This document shows, piece by piece, positions 1,603-15,550 of a DNA stretch of 64,000 nt (its first letter is position 1; every line of letters starts with the position of its first letter). The notes under the pieces were generated by a model. That model did not search any database. It was not told the origin of the DNA and saw nothing but the letters and a program-made list of their open reading frames with translations. The position numbers and the translations under genes are program-made. Origin of the DNA: Arcobacter roscoffensis. GTDB lineage: Bacteria; Campylobacterota; Campylobacteria; Campylobacterales; Arcobacteraceae. The DNA lies in assembly GCF_024267655.1 (NCBI RefSeq), contig NZ_CP100595.1, positions 1,922,001 through 1,986,000 of the forward strand, written 5' to 3'.

Positions 1603-1872
1603 ATGAGTGCAGCAATCGCAACAAAAGAAGATTTTGATAAGTTCCAAAGAACTATAGTTAAAATGTTAAAAGAAGTAAATAATTCTACTCAAAAAGAATG
1701 GCTAACAAAAGAAGAGTGTTTATCTTTATATGGTATCAAAGATAGAACACTCACAGAATTAAGACAAACTAGGAAAGTTGTATTTAGTAAAGTTGGTAAT
1801 ACATGTATCTATAAACATGATAGTATTATTGAACTAATTGAAGAAAACAAAATTGAGGCTATGAGTCACTAG
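1603..1872 (+). CDS. Excisionase-like helix-turn-helix protein
   Basis: This 89-residue protein has residues about 30-82 (EWLTKEECLSLYGIKDRTLTEL, then VGNTCIYKHDSIIELIEEN) that fit the HTH_17/MerR-like winged helix of excisionases and DNA-binding accessory factors. It begins 3 bases after the previous gene. Its 3' end overlaps the 3' end of the convergent integrase gene by 14 bases. Excisionases usually bind next to arm-type integrase sites and direct excision, and proximity to the integrase fits that role. A simple transcriptional regulator is the alternative. The start ATG at 1603 is the only sensible one. Confidence 0.65.
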   Translation: MSAAIATKEDFDKFQRTIVKMLKEVNNSTQKEWLTKEECLSLYGIKDRTLTELRQTRKVVFSKVGNTCIYKHDSIIELIEENKIEAMSH

Positions 1873-2944
1873 GCTTATATGCCTCAAATAAACTATCTAC
1901 AACATTTTTCACACTATCTCTATGAACTTTTGAATATCTTTGAGTCATATTTGCAGTCGTATGACCAAGAGTCTTTCCTACAACTTCTAAAGTAAATCCA
2001 TTATTTACTCCATATCCCCCTACTACATGTCTTAAATCATGCATATTAAGATTTGCAAGACCTGTAGCAATCCTGATTTTATTCCAATGATAATCCATAC
2101 CACATTTACCTATTGTTTGCCCAGGTTTAACACTTGATTCAAATACAAGACCACTTTCTTTTATTCCATACTCTTTTAAAGCTTCTATTAATGTATCAGT
2201 TAAACTATATTGAAATGTTTTATTAATTTTAGAGATTTTACTATCAATAGTATATATATTGTTATGAAAATCAATATCTTCCCATCTTATGTTTAAAACC
2301 TCACCTTTTCTTCTACCATGCAACAACCAAATAAATATTGTTCTGATTTTTATATCTTTATATTTAAAAATTGCTTCAAACAGCTTTTTATTTTCATCTT
2401 CTGTTAATTCAATAACTCTTGTATTATCAAATTTAGGAATTTTTATTGCTCTTCCAATATTTTCTATATTCTTTATGCCCAGTTCAGGAAGAAATTTATA
2501 AATAGCTACAATTATCTCTTTTATAGATTTTGCAGTTTGAGGAGCTCTTCCTGAATCTAAAATATCATTTATAATCTTTTGGCACATGGCAGTTGTAATA
2601 TCTTTTGGTTGTTTACTTCCTATTACATCTTTTAAATACTTATGATAATTCTTTTCACTTGCATATAAATATGTATCAGTAACAGTATTTTTTCTTAATT
2701 CTAAATATTCTTTAAATAGATCATTTAAATTTTTTTTGATATTTTTCAAAGAATGGCCACTTTCTAACTCTTCTAAAATATCAAGTCTTAATTTATTTGC
2801 TGTCTTTAAATTTAAATTTGGTTCTTTTCCTAATGTTTTAGTTGTATCTCTACCATTTTTATATATTCTTGCAACATAAACTTTTTTACCATTTTTATCT
2901 ATTCTATAATATAAACCATCATATTTTGTCTTAGTTAAAGCCAT
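1859..2944 (-). CDS. Tyrosine-type site-specific recombinase (integrase)
   Basis: This 361-residue phage-type integrase catalyses strand exchange between attachment sites. An N-terminal arm-binding region (about 1-65, with YYRIDKNGKKVYVARIYKNG) is followed by a core-binding SAM-like domain (about 70-170) and a catalytic domain. The catalytic set is visible: Arg212 (GRRKGEVLNIRW), His302 and Arg305 (HDLRH), His328 (LGHTTANMTQRYSK) and the nucleophile Tyr337. The protein looks intact. The start at 2944 is preceded on the coding strand by GAAGGA. It faces the excisionase-like gene, which it overlaps by 14 bases. A nested inverted repeat begins 12 bases upstream of its start codon, and beyond that lies rnpB. 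It is the hallmark gene of an integrative element whose other end is outside the window. Confidence 0.93.
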   Translation of the reverse strand: MALTKTKYDGLYYRIDKNGKKVYVARIYKNGRDTTKTLGKEPNLNLKTANKLRLDILEELESGHSLKNIKKNLNDLFKEYLELRKNTVTDTYLYASEKNYHKYLKDVIGSKQPKDITTAMCQKIINDILDSGRAPQTAKSIKEIIVAIYKFLPELGIKNIENIGRAIKIPKFDNTRVIELTEDENKKLFEAIFKYKDIKIRTIFIWLLHGRRKGEVLNIRWEDIDFHNNIYTIDSKISKINKTFQYSLTDTLIEALKEYGIKESGLVFESSVKPGQTIGKCGMDYHWNKIRIATGLANLNMHDLRHVVGGYGVNNGFTLEVVGKTLGHTTANMTQRYSKVHRDSVKNVVDSLFEAYKPSDS

Positions 2945-2955
2945 ATTTTTCCTTC

Positions 2956-3007
2956 ACCGTGTTAAAAATGAACCGTGTCAAGTTTTTGACACGGAGTTTA
3001 ACACGGT
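2956..3007. repeat. Nested inverted repeat built on four CCGTGTyAA copies
   Basis: Two perfect inverted repeats are nested. The outer arms are ACCGTGTTAAA (2956-2966) and TTTAACACGGT (2997-3007). The inner arms are CCGTGTCAA (2973-2981) and TTGACACGG (2986-2994), separated by GTTT. All four half-sites share the core CCGTGTyAA. The structure lies immediately upstream of the integrase start. It could be an operator for integrase autoregulation, a set of accessory-factor sites at the element end, or an RNA hairpin in the integrase leader. Which protein binds it is unknown. Confidence 0.85.
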
Positions 3008-3013
3008 TATAGT

Positions 3014-3100
3014 TGTAATTGTATGTAATTCAATGTAATATTATAATGGTATATTTTTTAATAAAGGCTTATTTTGTAAGTGTTTGTAAGTCATTGTAAA
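3014..3100. repeat. Two triplets of 10-bp-phased TGTAA direct repeats
   Basis: TGTAA occurs at 3014, 3024 and 3034 (followed by TT, TT, TA) and again at 3075, 3085 and 3095, where the context is TTGTAAG, TTGTAAG, TTGTAAA. Spacing is exactly 10 bases within each triplet, and the triplets are 61 bases apart. One-helical-turn direct repeats at the edge of an integrated element are the usual form of arm-type integrase sites or excisionase sites. The array fills the gap between the integrase leader and the 3' end of rnpB. Confidence 0.75.
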
Positions 3101-3105
3101 GTTAT

Positions 3106-3429
3106 AAGGTAAACCAATAAGCCGAGTTCTGTTTTTAAGACAATAATTTATCTAGTTAGCAAATTACTTAGCTAATCTTGCGAAGACCAAAAATGTGAAG
3201 TAAATACCGGGTCTTCTTGCTGCTGGTTGGGTTTACAAAGCACTTAAGATTACTCAAAAGTCTGGTGAGCTCTTACCTCACCGTTTCACCATCACCGATA
3301 AATCGGCTGTCTACTCTCTGTTGCACTATCCCTTAGGTTACCCTAGCCATTCTCTAAATGGAACCATACCTCACTGCAGCCCGGACTTTCCTCTTGAACT
3401 TATGTTCAAGCTATTGTCTGGTTTACCTT
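3106..3429 (-). ncRNA. rnpB: RNase P catalytic RNA
   Basis: The minus strand carries the conserved bacterial RNase P RNA signatures. GAGGAAAGTCCGGGCT lies near the 5' end (around 3378-3393), and there is a conserved ending with ...ACAGAACUCGGCUUAU... near the 3' end. The limits are set by a perfect 11-bp P1 helix: AAGGTAAACCA at the 5' end (plus-strand 3419-3429) pairs with TGGTTTACCTT at the 3' end (plus-strand 3106-3116). It processes tRNA 5' ends together with RnpA. A TATAAT box lies just upstream. No U-run terminator follows the 3' end, where the integrative element's repeats begin instead. Confidence 0.95.
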
Positions 3430-7905: not shown

Positions 7906-10817
7906 TATTTTGGAATTATTAAGTTAAAAGTGGTTCCTACTTTTTCTTTACTCTCACAAGTAATTGTTCCCTCTAGTTTTGTAGTAACTAAGTTATACAC
8001 TATACTAAGCCCTAATCCACTTCCTCCACTATCTCTGCTCGTAGTATAAAAAGGATTAAAGATTTTAGATAAATTCTCTTTTTTTATTCCTTTTCCATAA
8101 TCTTTAAAAGCTATCATAATACTATCTTGATTTTGATCAACTATTATATCAATACTATTTTCCTCATCTCTTTCATAAGCATGTTTTAAACTATTCATGA
8201 TTAGATTTGTAAAAATTTGAGAATATACACCAGCATAACTATTAATAGAAATATCTTTTTTACAGTCAATATTTATTTTAACTTTGGTTTTTTTTGTGAT
8301 ATTATTTAAACTTATAAGTATCTCTTCTAAATACTCGCAAAGATTAAACTCTCTTTTTTCATCACTTGATTGATCAACTGCAACTTGTTTGAAACTTCTA
8401 ACTAACTGGGCTGTTTTTTCAAGATTAAGATTTATTGTTTTTGATAATTCATTTGATGTTTGAATAAATTCTTCAAACTCTTCTTCACTTAAGTTTCCAT
8501 CCTTATAATCTTTTTCAAGCTTACTTGCCATTGACATAAAGTGTGTGATACCTGTAAGAGATAAACCTACAGGAGTATTTATCTCATGTGCAACTCCAGC
8601 AACTAATTCCCCTAAACTAGCCATTTTTTCTGATTCTATTAAGTTTTCTTGTGTTCTTTTTAACTCATCCATTGAATCTTTTAACTCTTTTGTTCTTAGC
8701 TCAACTTTTTGTTCTAATGTTTCATTTAAAACTTTTATCTCTTCTTGAGCTTTTTTTCTAGCTTCAATTTCTTCATCTCTTTGATTTACTTTCTCTTCAA
8801 GTTGTGAATAATGCTCTGTTAAAAGCTTCTCTTTTTCTTTGAAATAGTTAATTTTTTCACTAAACTGTTCAGGTGTAATTTTCATATCTTTTAAAATTTT
8901 TGCATATACATTTGAAAGACTTATACTTTCTTCTTCTGTAAAAATTTCACTGTTTTTTAATACACTATAAGCCCCAGCAGTTCCAAGGGTTCCTGCTAAA
9001 ATCTTTTCAATATGAGCATAAGTTTTTGATAACTGTAAAATATTCATTTTTTCTTTTTTATATAATTTAAACTCTTTTTTTAACTTTAATAAAATCATAC
9101 TTGTTTTACGAGAGCTAAAATAGTCTGATAAAATAGCCTCATATATTTTCATCTTTTCTTTAACTATAATACTATCTTCTAATTGACCTTTATAATGATT
9201 TTGCTCTTTATTTTCTAAAATATTTATAAAGTCAATTGCTACTTTTGTTTCAATTTGTGTTGATTTATTAAGTAATGAAAAGATTATGTATGCACTAATA
9301 TTAAATATCATACTAAATAAAACAGCGTGGGGAATAGAACTAAAACTATCTAATCCAAATAAAGCAGTAGGCTTTAAACTTTCAATTCCAAATAATCCTT
9401 TATCTATAATATACGATGAAATCCATTGACTTTTTTCAAATTGAGGAATAATTAATGTATAAAACCACACAGTAAAACCTGTAATCAAAGCAGCTAAGGC
9501 ACCTTTTTTATTTGCTCTTTCCCAAAATAGACCTCCTAAAATAATAGGAGCAAACTGTAAAATTGCAGTAAAAGAAATAAGCCCAATATTAACTATTAAA
9601 TTTGTTTTTGAAACAAAAAGATAAAACAAGTAACTCAAATATATAATTAAAGTTACTATAATCCATCTAATAAAAAGTAGCCTTTTCTTTAAAAAGCCTA
9701 GTCTTCTACTTGATTGAATTAATGGTAAGACAAAATAGTTGCTAACCATAATAGCCATTGCCATAGAAGTAATCATTATCATACTAGTTGATGCTGAAAA
9801 GCCACCAATAAATGCAATTAACGCCAGTATTGGTTTATTCATATCTAAAGGAATAGTAAGAACATAAAAATCACTTAATGTATGATCTGTGGATATAAGC
9901 TCCCCTGCTAAAGCAATTGGTATTGTAAAAAAAGTAATTAATAAAAGGTATAAAGGAAACACCCACATTGCTGTTTTAATATGGCTTATATCAGAGTTCT
10001 CAACAACACTAATATGAAATTGTCTTGGTAGAAACATTACAGCAAACATTGATAGTATTAAAATACTTATCCAAGAAGAGTAGTCAACTCCAACACTTGA
10101 ATTAATTTGTTTAAATAATCCATTAGATGAAGCCTCATCTAATATGCTAGAAATATCTGGAAATAAAAAAAATGATACAAAAATACCAATAATTAAAATA
10201 GCAATCAATTTTACTATTGATTCAATGGCAACAATAAAAACCATACCAAAGTGCCGTTCTGAGGGGTCAAGTTTTCTTAGTCCAAATATTATTGTAAAAA
10301 ATGTCATTAAAAAAACTATAAGTAAACCAATACTATCAGTACTAGTATTTTCATTTACAAAATTTGAATGATGATTGATAGTTAAAATATCAATAGATTG
10401 TATTATAGCTTTTAGCTGAATAGAGATATAAGGGATTATTCCCACAAGTGTACCAAAACTAACTATTGCACCAATTAGCATAGATTTATCATATCTTACT
10501 GAAATCAAATCTGCTAAACTTGTCACTTTATATCTGTTTTTAATTTTAATCAATCTTTGAAGAATTATAGGCCATAAAAATATAATAAGTGTAGGTCCTA
10601 AATATACAGCTAAAAATATAATACCACTACTTGTAACCTTCCCAACACTACCATAATATGTCCAAGCAGTACAGTAAATAGCTAAAGATAATGAGTATAA
10701 ATATGCTCTTGTTTGAGATGAGAAATTAAATCTTTTATTTTCAAGAAAATAAGCAAAAATAAAAAGAATTAACATATAACTAGAAAATATAGTTATTACT
10801 TCATATAATTCAAACAT
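7905..10817 (-). CDS. Sodium/solute symporter-histidine kinase fusion (CbrA/CrbS-like)
   Basis: This 970-residue protein fuses a transporter to a sensor kinase. Residues about 5-500 are a multi-pass SLC5/PutP-type domain (AIYCTAWTYYGSVGKVTSSG, GFSASTSMIMITSMAMAIMVSN). About 540-640 resembles the STAC linker domain. A coiled coil spans about 660-730. The kinase core follows: His744 in GVAHEINTPVG, the N-box NLIMNSLKHAY, the G1 box DYGKGI and the G2 box GGSGLGLSIV. No receiver domain is attached. Known relatives (CbrA, CrbS) sense nutrients such as histidine or acetate. Substrate cannot be read here. A small two-TM protein is encoded just upstream, and a REC/HD-GYP regulator is divergent, making it the probable partner. 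Confidence 0.88.
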   Translation of the reverse strand: MFELYEVITIFSSYMLILFIFAYFLENKRFNFSSQTRAYLYSLSLAIYCTAWTYYGSVGKVTSSGIIFLAVYLGPTLIIFLWPIILQRLIKIKNRYKVTSLADLISVRYDKSMLIGAIVSFGTLVGIIPYISIQLKAIIQSIDILTINHHSNFVNENTSTDSIGLLIVFLMTFFTIIFGLRKLDPSERHFGMVFIVAIESIVKLIAILIIGIFVSFFLFPDISSILDEASSNGLFKQINSSVGVDYSSWISILILSMFAVMFLPRQFHISVVENSDISHIKTAMWVFPLYLLLITFFTIPIALAGELISTDHTLSDFYVLTIPLDMNKPILALIAFIGGFSASTSMIMITSMAMAIMVSNYFVLPLIQSSRRLGFLKKRLLFIRWIIVTLIIYLSYLFYLFVSKTNLIVNIGLISFTAILQFAPIILGGLFWERANKKGALAALITGFTVWFYTLIIPQFEKSQWISSYIIDKGLFGIESLKPTALFGLDSFSSIPHAVLFSMIFNISAYIIFSLLNKSTQIETKVAIDFINILENKEQNHYKGQLEDSIIVKEKMKIYEAILSDYFSSRKTSMILLKLKKEFKLYKKEKMNILQLSKTYAHIEKILAGTLGTAGAYSVLKNSEIFTEEESISLSNVYAKILKDMKITPEQFSEKINYFKEKEKLLTEHYSQLEEKVNQRDEEIEARKKAQEEIKVLNETLEQKVELRTKELKDSMDELKRTQENLIESEKMASLGELVAGVAHEINTPVGLSLTGITHFMSMASKLEKDYKDGNLSEEEFEEFIQTSNELSKTINLNLEKTAQLVRSFKQVAVDQSSDEKREFNLCEYLEEILISLNNITKKTKVKINIDCKKDISINSYAGVYSQIFTNLIMNSLKHAYERDEENSIDIIVDQNQDSIMIAFKDYGKGIKKENLSKIFNPFYTTSRDSGGSGLGLSIVYNLVTTKLEGTITCESKEKVGTTFNLIIPK

Positions 10818-10821
10818 AATA

Positions 10822-11016
10822 TTACTCTTTTATTTTAACTGAAGTGGATATAAATTTTAAAAGTATAATTATCATAAACCAAGATACATAGACCATAAGA
10901 AAACTTTGAAATAAATCATCTTTATCAAAAGTAAATATTACATAAATATTTATAAAGATAAATATTAAAACAAAGGCTAAAACTTGAAACACTTTTGATT
11001 GAAATAATTTTTTCAT
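10822..11016 (-). CDS. Small two-TM membrane protein preceding the symporter-kinase
   Basis: This 64-residue protein starts at the ATG at 11016, which has GGTGGA about 7 bases upstream. A longer reading from 11058 would add 14 residues without a ribosome-binding site. It has two predicted membrane helices (about 8-30 and 38-60) joined by an acidic loop (FDKDD). The stop lies 4 bases before the symporter-kinase start, so the two are one transcription unit. The layout recalls the short accessory subunits (DUF4212- or DUF485-like) that accompany some SLC5 symporters. Sequence similarity to those families is not obvious by eye, so this is inference. Confidence 0.7.
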   Translation of the reverse strand: MKKLFQSKVFQVLAFVLIFIFINIYVIFTFDKDDLFQSFLMVYVSWFMIIILLKFISTSVKIKE

Positions 11017-11124
11017 AAATAATCCACCAATTATTTTATATTTAATAACATAATACACTATTTAAAGAAACAATGTCAAAAATATGTTATCATGTATGAA
11101 TAAAATATGAAAAAAGGCTAATTT

Positions 11125-12639
11125 ATGGCTAACTTAAAATTTGCAAAAAAAAGAAAAGATGAAAATCCCTTAAGTGAAGAAAAATGGAAAATATTAATAT
11201 GTGATGATGAAATATCAGTACACTCAATTACAAAAACTGTATTAAATGATTTTACTTTTAAACATAAAAAATTAGAGTTTTTAAGTGCATATAGTGCAAA
11301 AGAAGCTTTAGAGATATTAAAAAATGAAGATGATATAGCTGTTGTTTTACTTGATGTTGTTATGGAAACAGATCATGCTGGTCTTGATTTAGTAAAGATT
11401 ATTAGAGAAGAGTTAAATAATAAATTAATTAGAATAGTTTTAAGAACAGGTCAGCCAGGTTCTGCACCTGAAAAAGAAGTGATTCAAAAATATGATATAA
11501 ACGATTATAAAGAAAAGACTGAGTTAACAGATATAAAACTTTTTACTACTATGATAAGTGCTATTAGATCATACAAAGATTTAAGTGCTATTCATAAAAG
11601 TAAAAAAGGCTTAGAAAAAATTATTGATGCAACAAAAAATATCTATGAAACAAACTCATTAAAGCTTTTTGCTAGTGGTGTTTTAAGTCAAATAATTTCT
11701 ATATTAAAACTTAATGGTCACTCTTTTTTAATAAATGCTGATGGATTTTCTCTAGAAAAAGAAGATAAAGATATTAATCTCTTAGCAACAACAGGAAGTT
11801 TTAGTAACAAAAATATAGAAGAGATATTAACTCCCCAAATAAAAGAGTTAATAAATGAAGCTATAGAAAAAAAAGAGTCTATTTTTTTAGAAGACAAATA
11901 TATAGGTTATATACAAACAGAGAATAACAAACAAAATATTATCTATATAAATGGCTTTAATAAACTAAATAAATTGGATAAAAACTTAATAAATATCTTT
12001 TCAAATAATGTGTCTAGTGCTTTTAATAATTTATATTTAAATAAAGAGATAATTGATACACAAAAAGAATTAATTGAAACATTAGGTGAAACAGTTGAGA
12101 GACGTTCAAAAGAGGCTTCTCATCATGTAAGAAGAGTTGCTAATATCTCTTATGAACTGGCTATTAAATATGGGCTTAATGAAGAAGAAGCAATTTTAAT
12201 TAGAAATGCCTCACCTATGCATGATGTTGGTAAAATAGGAATACCTGATTCTATTTTATTAAAACCTGAAAAGCTAACTGAAGATGAGATGAAAATCATG
12301 AAAACCCATGCCCAAATAGGAAGAGATATTCTAGCTCACTCAAAAAAAGATGTTTTACAAGCTGCCTCTATTATTGCCTATGAGCACCATGAAAAGTGGG
12401 ATGGGTCAGGTTATCCAAATAGCTTAAAGGGTGAAGAGATTCATATTTATGGAAGAATTACAGCTTTAGCAGATGTATTTGATGCACTACTTCATAAAAG
12501 ATGCTACAAAGAGCCATGGAGCTTAGAAAATACGATTAACTTAATCAATGAACAAAAAGGTAAACACTTTGACCCAAAACTAGTGGAAATACTTTTTGAA
12601 AATATAGAAGTTTTTAAGAAAATAGAAGGTTTAGAATAA
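11125..12639 (+). CDS. Response regulator with DUF3369 and HD-GYP domains
   Basis: This 504-residue protein begins with a receiver domain (about 20-150). It has acidic residues ICDDE at 25-29, the phosphoacceptor Asp77 in VVLLDVVMETD, and a conserved Thr/Lys region. A DUF3369 sensory region (about 165-310) is followed by an HD-GYP domain (about 320-500), with HHVRRVAN, the HD pair in MHDVGKIGIPD, HAQIGRDIL, HHEKWDGSGYP and DVFDALLHKRCYKEPW. HD-GYP proteins hydrolyse cyclic di-GMP, and the metal ligands and the GYP motif (GSGYP) are present, so it should be active. It is divergent from the symporter-kinase operon, with about 108 bases between, which suggests a cognate kinase-regulator pair. 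Confidence 0.92.
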   Translation: MANLKFAKKRKDENPLSEEKWKILICDDEISVHSITKTVLNDFTFKHKKLEFLSAYSAKEALEILKNEDDIAVVLLDVVMETDHAGLDLVKIIREELNNKLIRIVLRTGQPGSAPEKEVIQKYDINDYKEKTELTDIKLFTTMISAIRSYKDLSAIHKSKKGLEKIIDATKNIYETNSLKLFASGVLSQIISILKLNGHSFLINADGFSLEKEDKDINLLATTGSFSNKNIEEILTPQIKELINEAIEKKESIFLEDKYIGYIQTENNKQNIIYINGFNKLNKLDKNLINIFSNNVSSAFNNLYLNKEIIDTQKELIETLGETVERRSKEASHHVRRVANISYELAIKYGLNEEEAILIRNASPMHDVGKIGIPDSILLKPEKLTEDEMKIMKTHAQIGRDILAHSKKDVLQAASIIAYEHHEKWDGSGYPNSLKGEEIHIYGRITALADVFDALLHKRCYKEPWSLENTINLINEQKGKHFDPKLVEILFENIEVFKKIEGLE

Positions 12640-12649
12640 ACTAAACTCT

Positions 12650-15550
12650 CTATTTATCACCTAAATCTTTAATAAACTCAAAAAGTTTAATAGGAGATTC
12701 AAGTACCCTTTTTCCTATATTCACAGGAACAGAAAAAGCATCTTTTGTAAGGTTTGTAGAGATTTTTGGATTCTTTAAATCTCCAAAAATATTAACTTGT
12801 GTAGCTACTCTTTTATTCTCTCCAAGTAATACATAATTTACAACAGGTATACTTCCAACTATAGAAGAGTAATCTTTAAAAAATATCAATTTTATCTTTG
12901 AATCAAGGGTCATATTATTTAAATCTACTTTTCCTTTACCATCAAAATCAATTCCATTTCCAACAGTCACAAGCTTATTTACATCAAGGTTTTTCTTTTT
13001 ATTATCATACACAAATTCTAAAACCCCATCTATAATCTTGTAACCTGTAAGATTGAAACCTTTATTAGATGCCATTGAAACAACTGAGGGTACTGCTAAT
13101 AAAGGATTTATTAATGCAGGTGAACTATGAATAAATATCAAAAGATTATTTATAATTGCTAAATCTTTAATCTTTACATTTGTGAAAATAGTTTTTCCCT
13201 TTAAATTATGTTCAAAGCCATTTGCAATAAACATTAACTTCCCACCCTCAACAATTTGTTTTTTAAAAATAGTATTTACAAATTCATCACTTATATCATT
13301 TGCATAAATATCTATTTTCCCCTCTTTTGATTGTTTATAGGTTACATCTGTTTTTTTATGCATTAAATGAAGATATTTACTAGTATCTTCTTTTAATCTG
13401 AATTCGTAAGAATTAGCTAAAAACTTAAAATCTTTATTGATAATAAGATTTGAATTTTTAGCTTTCAAATTTATAATATCAAATTCACTTTCTTCTTCAC
13501 TTTTTAAGTCTACTAAAACATCATAAGAATTAATATCTAAATCAATTCTGTTTTCACCAATAATTTCTAATCTTAAACTATCATCAAGTGTTTTTATTTT
13601 AATTCTTTCTTTTGATAAGGAACCTTCTAAATTTAAAGAAGTTACCTTTTTATCATTTTTTGATAAAGGAATATCAAGATTTTTTACAAAAGCATTAAAA
13701 GAAATATTTTCATCATTTATATGGGCATTAAAAGTATTTAAATAATACTCTGCATCTTTATTTTTTAAGCGAATATCTTCACCTTTTACTAATAATTTTA
13801 ATTTTTCATTAGTATTATTTTCATTACTTATATCAAGTAGATAATCTTTTAGAAAAAGCTCTACTCTTTCTCCATCTATAAATAATTTAACTTTTTCATT
13901 TACTGAATTAATATATGTTTTAGAATCTTGCACTTTTCCTTTAATCTCTAAACTATCAAGCTTTGTACTATTTTCAAATAAAGGAAAATTGAGTTTTGAA
14001 ACAATACCATTAAAGGTTAAATTTTTTTCATCTTTTATTTTTAGCTTTAAATTACCTTCTTTAATAGAGTTTTCTTTAAGAACTTGTGAATATTCATAAA
14101 TTTTAGATAAGTCTTTAATATTTACATTTATTAATTCATCAATATAGATGTCTAAAGCTAAATCTTCAAGGGAAATACCAACAGCCTTTGAAAAATCAAG
14201 ATTGATTTTACTTTTTTTATCTTTTACATTTAATATCTTTTGAGTTTTTGTTTCTACATCAAAACTATTTATTAATACCTCACCTTTTGCTTTTAAAGTA
14301 TTTGTATCTAATTCAAGATTATTAATTGTTGCTTTGAGCATATCCTTGTCACTAAAGTCTGACTTTTTTATTCTAATTATTGAACCATCTAAAATCACAT
14401 TTGCTTTTTTCGTATAAAACTCAAAGTTATTTGCTTTTATTTTTGCATCTTTTACAATAAATTGACCTTGGGTACTCATCTTTTTACTTAGTAAATAAGG
14501 TACCTTTAAAACTAAAGCAGTACTTGTAATACCTGTTTGCTGTATTAATGGAATATTTATATTATAAGTTTTCAATAAGTCCAAAATTGTTTGGTTTAAT
14601 TTTGATTTTGATTTTATATTTACTTCAACTACTCCATTTTTCTCACTAGCTAAATTTCTAATTACTACAAAACTTCCATTAATATCTACATCTTTGTATT
14701 TTGGCTTTAAAAGATTAATATAAAGGTTTCCTTTTTTAAACTCTAAATCAATTTGTTTACTGACAACTGGACTTGCACCTTTTTGAAAGTTTACTTTTGC
14801 ATCATAAAGTTTTGCAGTACCTTTTAAAGACTTTTCAATAACTCTTTTTCTTTCTAAGTCAACTGTTCCATAAAAGTCTTCAAGTTGTATATCTGCACTT
14901 ACATTTTCATACATCCAGTCTTCAGCATCAACAGAAAGCCTAAAAAACTCTTTTAAAAATGATAAACTTTTAAATTTATTTGAGTTTATATAAAACTGAG
15001 CAATTTTATCTGTCATTTCTAACTTTAGCTCACCATTTACATCTTGATAGTAGTATTTTCCAAAATAGTCTAATTTTTCATTAAAATAATCGATTTTTAC
15101 TTTTCCATCAAGCAATAAATCAAGATCTTTTAAATGTAGTGAATACATATCAAAGACTACCTGATGGGCTATAAAGTTAAACTTTGAAGAAAAGTTCACA
15201 TATTTATTATCTAAATATATTGCTTCTTCATTTATTGAAACTGTAAACTCATTTCCATCAATTTTTAGTCTTTCAATATGTACTTTTTTAAAAATTTTTA
15301 AGATATTTGGTAAAAGCTCAATATTCTTTTTTAGGTCTTCAAAGGAGCTGGTAACTTGAGATTTTTTTGATTTATATTCGATATTTTCTATATCTACAAT
15401 AAGTTTTTTATCTAGTTTTATATAAAATTGCGAGACATTTATATTATTAAAAGAGAAAGAGTCTATTTTTATGCCTGATAATAACAGCGAAAACACCGAA
15501 ACTATAGTCAAAAAAAGAAAAACTAATAAAAGTTTAATTATCTTTAACAT
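12650..15550 (-). CDS. AsmA/YhdP-like envelope protein (DUF3971/AsmA-like C-terminal)
   Basis: This 966-residue protein has an N-terminal membrane anchor (about 5-27) and a long beta-rich repetitive body. The C-terminal part (about 770-960) has the AsmA/YhdP signature: a segment with NGIDFDGKGKVDLNNMTLDSKI, then SIVGSIPVVNYVLLG, then GDLKNPKISTN and a closing NIGKRVLESPIKLFEF. AsmA-like proteins span the periplasm and are implicated in lipid transport between membranes. The ATG at 15550 gives the anchor helix directly, with no room for a better start. Its first 80 bases overlap the 5' end of the divergent mltG gene. The length is shorter than E. coli YhdP but typical for this phylum. Confidence 0.8.
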   Translation of the reverse strand: MLKIIKLLLVFLFLTIVSVFSLLLSGIKIDSFSFNNINVSQFYIKLDKKLIVDIENIEYKSKKSQVTSSFEDLKKNIELLPNILKIFKKVHIERLKIDGNEFTVSINEEAIYLDNKYVNFSSKFNFIAHQVVFDMYSLHLKDLDLLLDGKVKIDYFNEKLDYFGKYYYQDVNGELKLEMTDKIAQFYINSNKFKSLSFLKEFFRLSVDAEDWMYENVSADIQLEDFYGTVDLERKRVIEKSLKGTAKLYDAKVNFQKGASPVVSKQIDLEFKKGNLYINLLKPKYKDVDINGSFVVIRNLASEKNGVVEVNIKSKSKLNQTILDLLKTYNINIPLIQQTGITSTALVLKVPYLLSKKMSTQGQFIVKDAKIKANNFEFYTKKANVILDGSIIRIKKSDFSDKDMLKATINNLELDTNTLKAKGEVLINSFDVETKTQKILNVKDKKSKINLDFSKAVGISLEDLALDIYIDELINVNIKDLSKIYEYSQVLKENSIKEGNLKLKIKDEKNLTFNGIVSKLNFPLFENSTKLDSLEIKGKVQDSKTYINSVNEKVKLFIDGERVELFLKDYLLDISNENNTNEKLKLLVKGEDIRLKNKDAEYYLNTFNAHINDENISFNAFVKNLDIPLSKNDKKVTSLNLEGSLSKERIKIKTLDDSLRLEIIGENRIDLDINSYDVLVDLKSEEESEFDIINLKAKNSNLIINKDFKFLANSYEFRLKEDTSKYLHLMHKKTDVTYKQSKEGKIDIYANDISDEFVNTIFKKQIVEGGKLMFIANGFEHNLKGKTIFTNVKIKDLAIINNLLIFIHSSPALINPLLAVPSVVSMASNKGFNLTGYKIIDGVLEFVYDNKKKNLDVNKLVTVGNGIDFDGKGKVDLNNMTLDSKIKLIFFKDYSSIVGSIPVVNYVLLGENKRVATQVNIFGDLKNPKISTNLTKDAFSVPVNIGKRVLESPIKLFEFIKDLGDK

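Follow-up and report, generated by a model that had tools for sequence, protein, structure and literature searches.

One-turn TGTAA repeats beside the integrase gene of an rnpB-inserted prophage in Arcobacter roscoffensis as probable excisionase sites

The window analysed here is a stretch of 64 kb (G000:C1:1922001-1986000) of the 3.15-Mb genome of Arcobacter roscoffensis (G000), and all plain positions given below are coordinates within it. The gene of a 361-aa tyrosine integrase (int; 1859..2944, minus strand) faces the 3' end of rnpB, which encodes RNase P RNA class A (3102..3429, minus strand; RF00010, 257 bits), and two clusters of TGTAA repeats lie between them, at the site where a prophage of about 35 kb is inserted. 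The integrase belongs to phrog_1 and carries PF13356 (arm-DNA-bind_3), PF14659 and PF00589, with the catalytic domain (PF00589, E = 2e-22) and the arm-DNA-binding domain (PF13356, E = 5e-8) scoring above the cut-off. Searched against the genome as DNA, the end region gave one further match (53 bp, 87%; G000:C1:1890012-1890064), and alignment of both ends delimited an 18-bp core, identical at attL and attR, which lies within the rnpB 3' end at 3104..3121 (attR) and in which crossover would take place. Such a direct-repeat core at both ends, located at a conserved gene, is characteristic of elements mobilised by arm-binding tyrosine integrases. The segment from core to core, about 35.1 kb long, encodes a portal, a major head protein, a tape measure protein, a DnaB-like helicase and a CI-like repressor, and is therefore regarded as the prophage of a temperate phage. 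The prophage ends and the arm-DNA-binding domain bear out the earlier proposal, made from the letters of the stretch alone, which placed the repeats in a phage attachment region beside an integrase.

The TGTAA copies start at 3014, 3024 and 3034 (cluster B, 3014..3038) and at 3075, 3085 and 3095 (cluster A, 3075..3099), in exact 10-bp steps and with the two triplets 61 bp apart from start to start; on the int (minus) strand they read TTACA. Cluster B, proposed as sites of an excisionase (recombination directionality factor, RDF), closely follows a TATAAT-like -10 of int in the direction of that gene, and cluster A adjoins the crossover core. None of 5000 dinucleotide-preserving shuffles of 2945-3110 gave even one TGTAA triplet; single triplets of 5-mers containing three or more different letters arose in 2 of 5000, and pairs of such triplets in none. 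Across the window, two such triplets within 166 bp occurred in just 4 of 3192 overlapping stretches, all of them covering the 3014-3099 site. Positions and shuffles thus confirm that there are two TGTAA triplets, phased at exactly 10 bases and 61 bases apart, as first noticed. The pattern TGTAA-N5-TGTAA-N5-TGTAA has four matches in the whole 3.15-Mb genome, corresponding to three arrays, every one within the same prophage. Scanning 104 genomes of the family for the pattern yielded 12 matches in 6 genomes: four in G000, one in G024 (at the homologous att region), four in G045, and single ones in G027, G054 and G088. The G045 matches constitute a single 10-bp tandem repeat (TGTAATGTAT) at G045:C27:12495-12549, and no integrase relative was found in the loci of about 3 kb around the matches in G027, G054 and G088.

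According to the sequence-only reading, the two groups flank the recombination region and might be bound by two different proteins, as their flanks differ. The former is incorrect, since both clusters lie to one side of the core, towards int. The difference in flanks (TGTAATT versus TTGTAAG) stands for two copies per triplet and breaks down at the third copies, which read TGTAATA and TTGTAAAG. The assignment to two proteins finds no support, because the flanks vary inside one triplet, a further array within the prophage mixes both flank types, and the halves of the same element share more words than random pairings (139 of 20000 permutations reached the observed value, in the 20 of 28 related elements with a confidently assigned arm pair). 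It is more likely that both clusters are bound by a single protein.

A second kind of repeat, spaced at 12 bp, lies closer to int. Two units, TTGACACGG and TTAACACGG, 12 bp apart at 2986..3006 (plus strand), are proposed as integrase arm-type sites of the P arm, and two more, CCGTGTTAA and CCGTGTCAA as read on the plus strand, were read directly in the opposite orientation at 2957..2981 (minus strand). The unit recurs on the P' arm of the prophage, where TTTAACACGG is found twice, 12 bp apart (L003:4110-4131), and a 12-bp-spaced AACACGG unit can thus be recognised on both arms of attP, the distribution predicted for arm-type sites; the P' arm holds no TGTAA triplet. The inverted arm-type units also form a terminator-like hairpin with a T-rich tail in the int leader (2973-2994, minus strand), which may act as a new 3' terminator of rnpB after integration.

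Relatives of the integrase were identified in 16 of the 104 family genomes (E ≤ 1e-30) and in 47 of 398 genomes of the order (E ≤ 1e-38). Upstream of int, rnpB occurs at six loci (G000, G030, G024, L028, G375 and G273, the last two assigned by eye from upstream sequence ending in an rnpB-like 3' end), and many other relatives are placed at tRNA genes (tRNA-Glu and tRNA-Leu, by eye). Genome G010 harbours three elements with nearly identical int upstream regions (L016, L023 and L026), and the L023 element lacks the tRNA sequence beside its core. Periodicity was assessed by counting, at each lag, recurrences of the same C- or G-containing 5-mer in the stretch from core to int (P region) and comparing the counts with shuffles, in 28 non-redundant elements remaining after 4 of 32 upstream regions had been left out as near-duplicates. 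At lag 10, 65 pairs were observed against 4.5 ± 2.6 in shuffles (z = 23), contributed by 21 of the 28 elements, a lag-10 word being missing in the other 7; lag 20 was also raised, and lags 8, 9, 11, 12 and 13 were not. The excess persisted when the six rnpB-targeting elements were removed (41 versus 3.0 ± 2.2, z = 17; 15 of 22 elements). The phasing is therefore kept in homologous elements, a point on which the excisionase-site proposal could have failed. In relatives, the phased repeats occupy the same place as cluster B and the core-proximal place of cluster A, and their letters vary from element to element while the 10-bp spacing remains constant. Random 135-bp pieces of the same loci displayed no excess at lag 10 and a mild one at lags 9 and 12, of the kind that coding DNA produces. 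The arm-pair finder clearly missed the pair in ten loci (L007, L074, L088, L096, L098, L087, L097, L010, L011 and L013), so that their P region is shifted.

Both ends were located in 17 of the 23 elements tried, and 14 P' arms were used for the same test after exclusion of the near-duplicates G290, G359 and G079. On these arms lag 10 was not raised (2 versus 2.6), and lag 12 was strongly so (59 versus 2.4, z = 28; 10 of 14 arms). A C/G-containing pair at 12-bp spacing was present on the P' arm in 14 of the 17 elements; G375 has a pair spaced 11 bp, and G027 and G010c have single or degenerate copies. The unit word of the P arm is common to the P' arm in 10 elements, and also in G231, G290 and G359, for which the sharing comes from a separate comparison of both ends, the P windows cut for them having missed the arm pair; by eye, sharing was apparent in G015, G010c and G030, and none was seen in G383. 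As the 12-bp repeat is found on both arms and the 10-bp repeat on the int arm alone, the former would serve the integrase and the latter a factor acting on one arm; direct repeats one helix turn apart on a single arm are what would be predicted for RDF sites. On this sequence comparison, the 12-bp repeat appears to be the stronger candidate for the arm-type sites of the integrase, and the suggestion that TGTAA copies are arm-type sites is probably wrong.

The candidate for the one-arm factor is a small winged-HTH protein of 89 aa, encoded at 1603..1872 on the plus strand; its gene runs towards int and shares 14 bp with the 3' end of int. The protein matches phrog_66 (excisionase and transcriptional regulator) at E = 5e-5. 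HTH_17 was matched by 10 of 10 aligned members (E ≤ 0.01; best E = 2e-9), the 89-aa protein itself being under the Pfam gathering score for this family (19.9 versus 27 bits); alignment A2 is A1 minus one row (L101:11921-12265), judged to be an unrelated HTH protein. A model based on the alignment (pLDDT 78; 55 for the single-sequence structure) adopts a winged-HTH fold, and Foldseek matched it weakly to RdfS, BldC on DNA and Pukovnik Xis (probability 0.92-0.99, every E at least 0.05), while searches of PDB sequences with the protein and its alignment gave nothing convincing. The closest match in the 104 family genomes is in G030, where it adjoins the related integrase gene at its 3' end and is convergent with it. 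HTH_17 genes are convergent with int and overlap or abut its end in G000, G030, G273 and G375, immediately precede int in G450 and G445, and lie about 1 to 25 kb from int in G010, G079, G082, G033 and G016.

The pair G000 and G030 offers one comparison that bears on which protein reads TGTAA. Their integrases are 73% identical (68% over the first 65 aa) and their small HTH proteins 37.5%; by eye, G030 keeps the CGTGT-type arm unit and not the TGTAA motif. This contrast agrees with the small protein, rather than the integrase, reading TGTAA. In three genomes with the motif at rnpB (G024, G023 and G017) no match to the 89-aa protein was found, so the co-variation of motif and protein is drawn from G000 versus G030. 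The opposite assignment, with TGTAA as the arm-type sites and the 12-bp repeats as operators of another regulator, can appeal to the arm-DNA-binding domain of the integrase and to lambda, in which arm sites spaced at 10 bp exist, but it is unlikely given that TGTAA is confined to one arm and the 12-bp repeat occurs on both, and that in G030 the phased motif has changed together with the small HTH protein.

Excisionase sites are also the favoured reading of cluster A, for which the other prophage end supplies a competing one. Next to the core, a 17-bp block (3084..3100) is identical at attL and attR and contains the TGTAA copies at 3085 and 3095, which, on inspection of that end, recur on the chromosome side of attL. 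Cluster A could accordingly be an extended core or an attB recognition sequence, leaving cluster B alone to the RDF: attL and attR share TTGTAAGTCATTGTAAA beyond the 18-bp core, the attL of G030 also shares the CTTACAAA flank, and the presence of two of the six copies in the chromosomal flank of attL, not called for by plain RDF sites, counts against the excisionase reading. Among 29 other rnpB loci, however, phased TTACA was seen only in G017, whose contig ends there, and among a further 20 in G023 (apparently the same contig as L028), with a partial occurrence in G026. A fixed attB component was thus rejected on 49 other rnpB loci; the motif tracks what are apparently elements or their remnants, and the attL pair is most plausibly a relic left by an earlier integration into the rnpB site. 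Such a relic would account for the attL copies, and we regard the extended-core alternative as quite improbable. The G026 locus (L217) bears a decayed G030-like cluster downstream of rnpB, with no integrase relative at E ≤ 1e-30, and is an apparent element relic.

Binding of the phased repeats by a nucleoid or regulatory protein of the host, in place of a phage excisionase, would fit the bending favoured by phased A+T-rich repeats and the participation of host factors, e.g. IHF, in such recombination (described for phage 186, PMC7498355). It is disfavoured because a host protein should have a single motif at many sites, whereas the motif varies by element at constant 10-bp spacing and the exact triplets of the genome are confined to one prophage; we consider this very improbable. 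Chance or a simple-repeat artefact, which might be invoked because the region is A+T-rich and the G045 tandem repeat matches the pattern too, is rejected by the shuffles, the conservation and the uniqueness of the arrays in the genome.

Excisionase binding within the prophage may extend beyond the attachment region. A third array, of four TGTAA copies phased at 10, lies at L005:8817-8851 (G000:C1:1918817-1918851), with the flanks TTGTAAC (three copies) and ATGTAAT (one copy). It begins 22 bp after a promoter-like TTGTCA-18-TATAAT and precedes a series of rightward reading frames (9870-13872 in the same L005 numbering), the last gene of which is the small HTH gene; the array may control this run. 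Similar repeats arrayed once more at a promoter-like sequence of the phage would be in keeping with a dual regulator of the Apl/Cox type. Other scanned elements yielded no internal array by motif or lag-10 scan; a 16-bp internal match in G085a was rejected as a two-copy fragment. At the attachment region, a TATAAT read directly on the int strand (3040..3045, minus) is the putative -10 of int; it has no good -35, and the promoter scan did not list the int-strand TATAAT at 3045-3040. Cluster B directly follows it, which suggests that its occupation represses int. Together, the one-turn repeats on one arm, the winged-HTH gene beside int and the second array within the prophage lend support to the excisionase part of the original proposal.

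The repeats, their phasing, conservation and uniqueness in the genome, the arm asymmetry and the gene linkage are direct observations. We consider it likely that both clusters are cooperative sites for one phage winged-HTH RDF, probably the 89-aa protein, in the attachment region of the rnpB-inserted prophage. Reading along the int strand, the order would be the core in rnpB, cluster A, the putative int -10, cluster B, the 12-bp arm-type sites and int. From this arrangement we infer the identity of the binder and the following course of events: the RDF would bind head-to-tail at both TGTAA clusters, in a row on one helix face, and bend the int-side arm, and the bent arm would favour the excisive direction of recombination by an integrase bridging the 12-bp arm sites of both arms. 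At cluster B, at the int start site, the RDF would also turn int down, and the same protein would act at the internal four-copy array, which precedes the gene run of which its own gene is the last member. More tentatively, a single one-turn TGTAA code read by one phage winged-HTH protein at three prophage arrays might couple excision, int expression and the protein's own gene run in a feedback circuit, in a family of Campylobacterota elements that keeps the layout (10-bp repeats on the int arm, 12-bp repeats on both) and changes the letters.

The proposed layout has counterparts in well-studied systems. The lambda Int/Xis attachment region likewise has separate core, arm-type and Xis sites, with the Xis sites on one arm; motifs, spacing (a 12-bp arm repeat here), target gene and gene order differ. 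Known RDFs recognise direct repeats with one-turn spacing, and Apl of phage 186 binds both att and pR-pL (PMC7498355). Direct repeats about one turn apart at att and a second array at a phage promoter region, here a promoter-like sequence, are shared with 186. The att repeats of 186 number five, and the second Apl site lies at the pR-pL switch (PMC7498355); the present prophage has two att triplets and a second array located some 3 kb away from the CI-like repressor gene, before another gene run. In the KplE1 prophage of E. coli, the intS promoter carries two blocks of TorI sites, and TorI represses intS (PMC2951348). Common to KplE1 and the arrangement proposed for the present prophage are an attachment region overlapping the int promoter, RDF sites in two blocks, and an integrase and RDF that are not under one shared promoter; the KplE1 target is a tRNA gene instead of rnpB, and the TorI sites have another sequence (PMC2951348). 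RdfS of ICEMlSymR7A and Pukovnik Xis, as described in PMC11963761, form head-to-tail oligomers along DNA and share the winged-HTH fold, which the modelled 89-aa protein would also adopt judging from its fold matches; RdfS has no apparent consensus site, in contrast to the strict TGTAA core of the G000 array.

The layout itself is ordinary in kind, and it recurs across a family of such elements. A raw repeat pattern is thereby turned into a testable attachment-region map of core, integrase sites and excisionase sites, in which two periods, 10 bp on one arm and 12 bp on both, separate excisionase from integrase sites by sequence; as this rule held for most relatives tested, it could serve for annotating int/RDF modules across Campylobacterales. 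Among the open-licence papers listed, judged by titles and abstract starts, no description of an excisionase site in Campylobacterales was found, nor of rnpB or RNase P RNA as a phage site (the rnpB passage of one paper concerns a promoter construct), and the family-wide two-period layout was not found described in the open-licence literature searched.

Two other features of the prophage were recorded. It contains a 5S rRNA gene (L005:8404-8519, minus strand; G000:C1:1918404-1918519; RF00001, 72 bits), which is 86% identical to eight further copies in the genome and for which blastn retrieved no similar sequence among 50,697 phage records. Adjoining the repressor gene, a gene at L005:6184-7248 (plus strand) encodes a type I restriction HSDR_N domain and is possible defence cargo.
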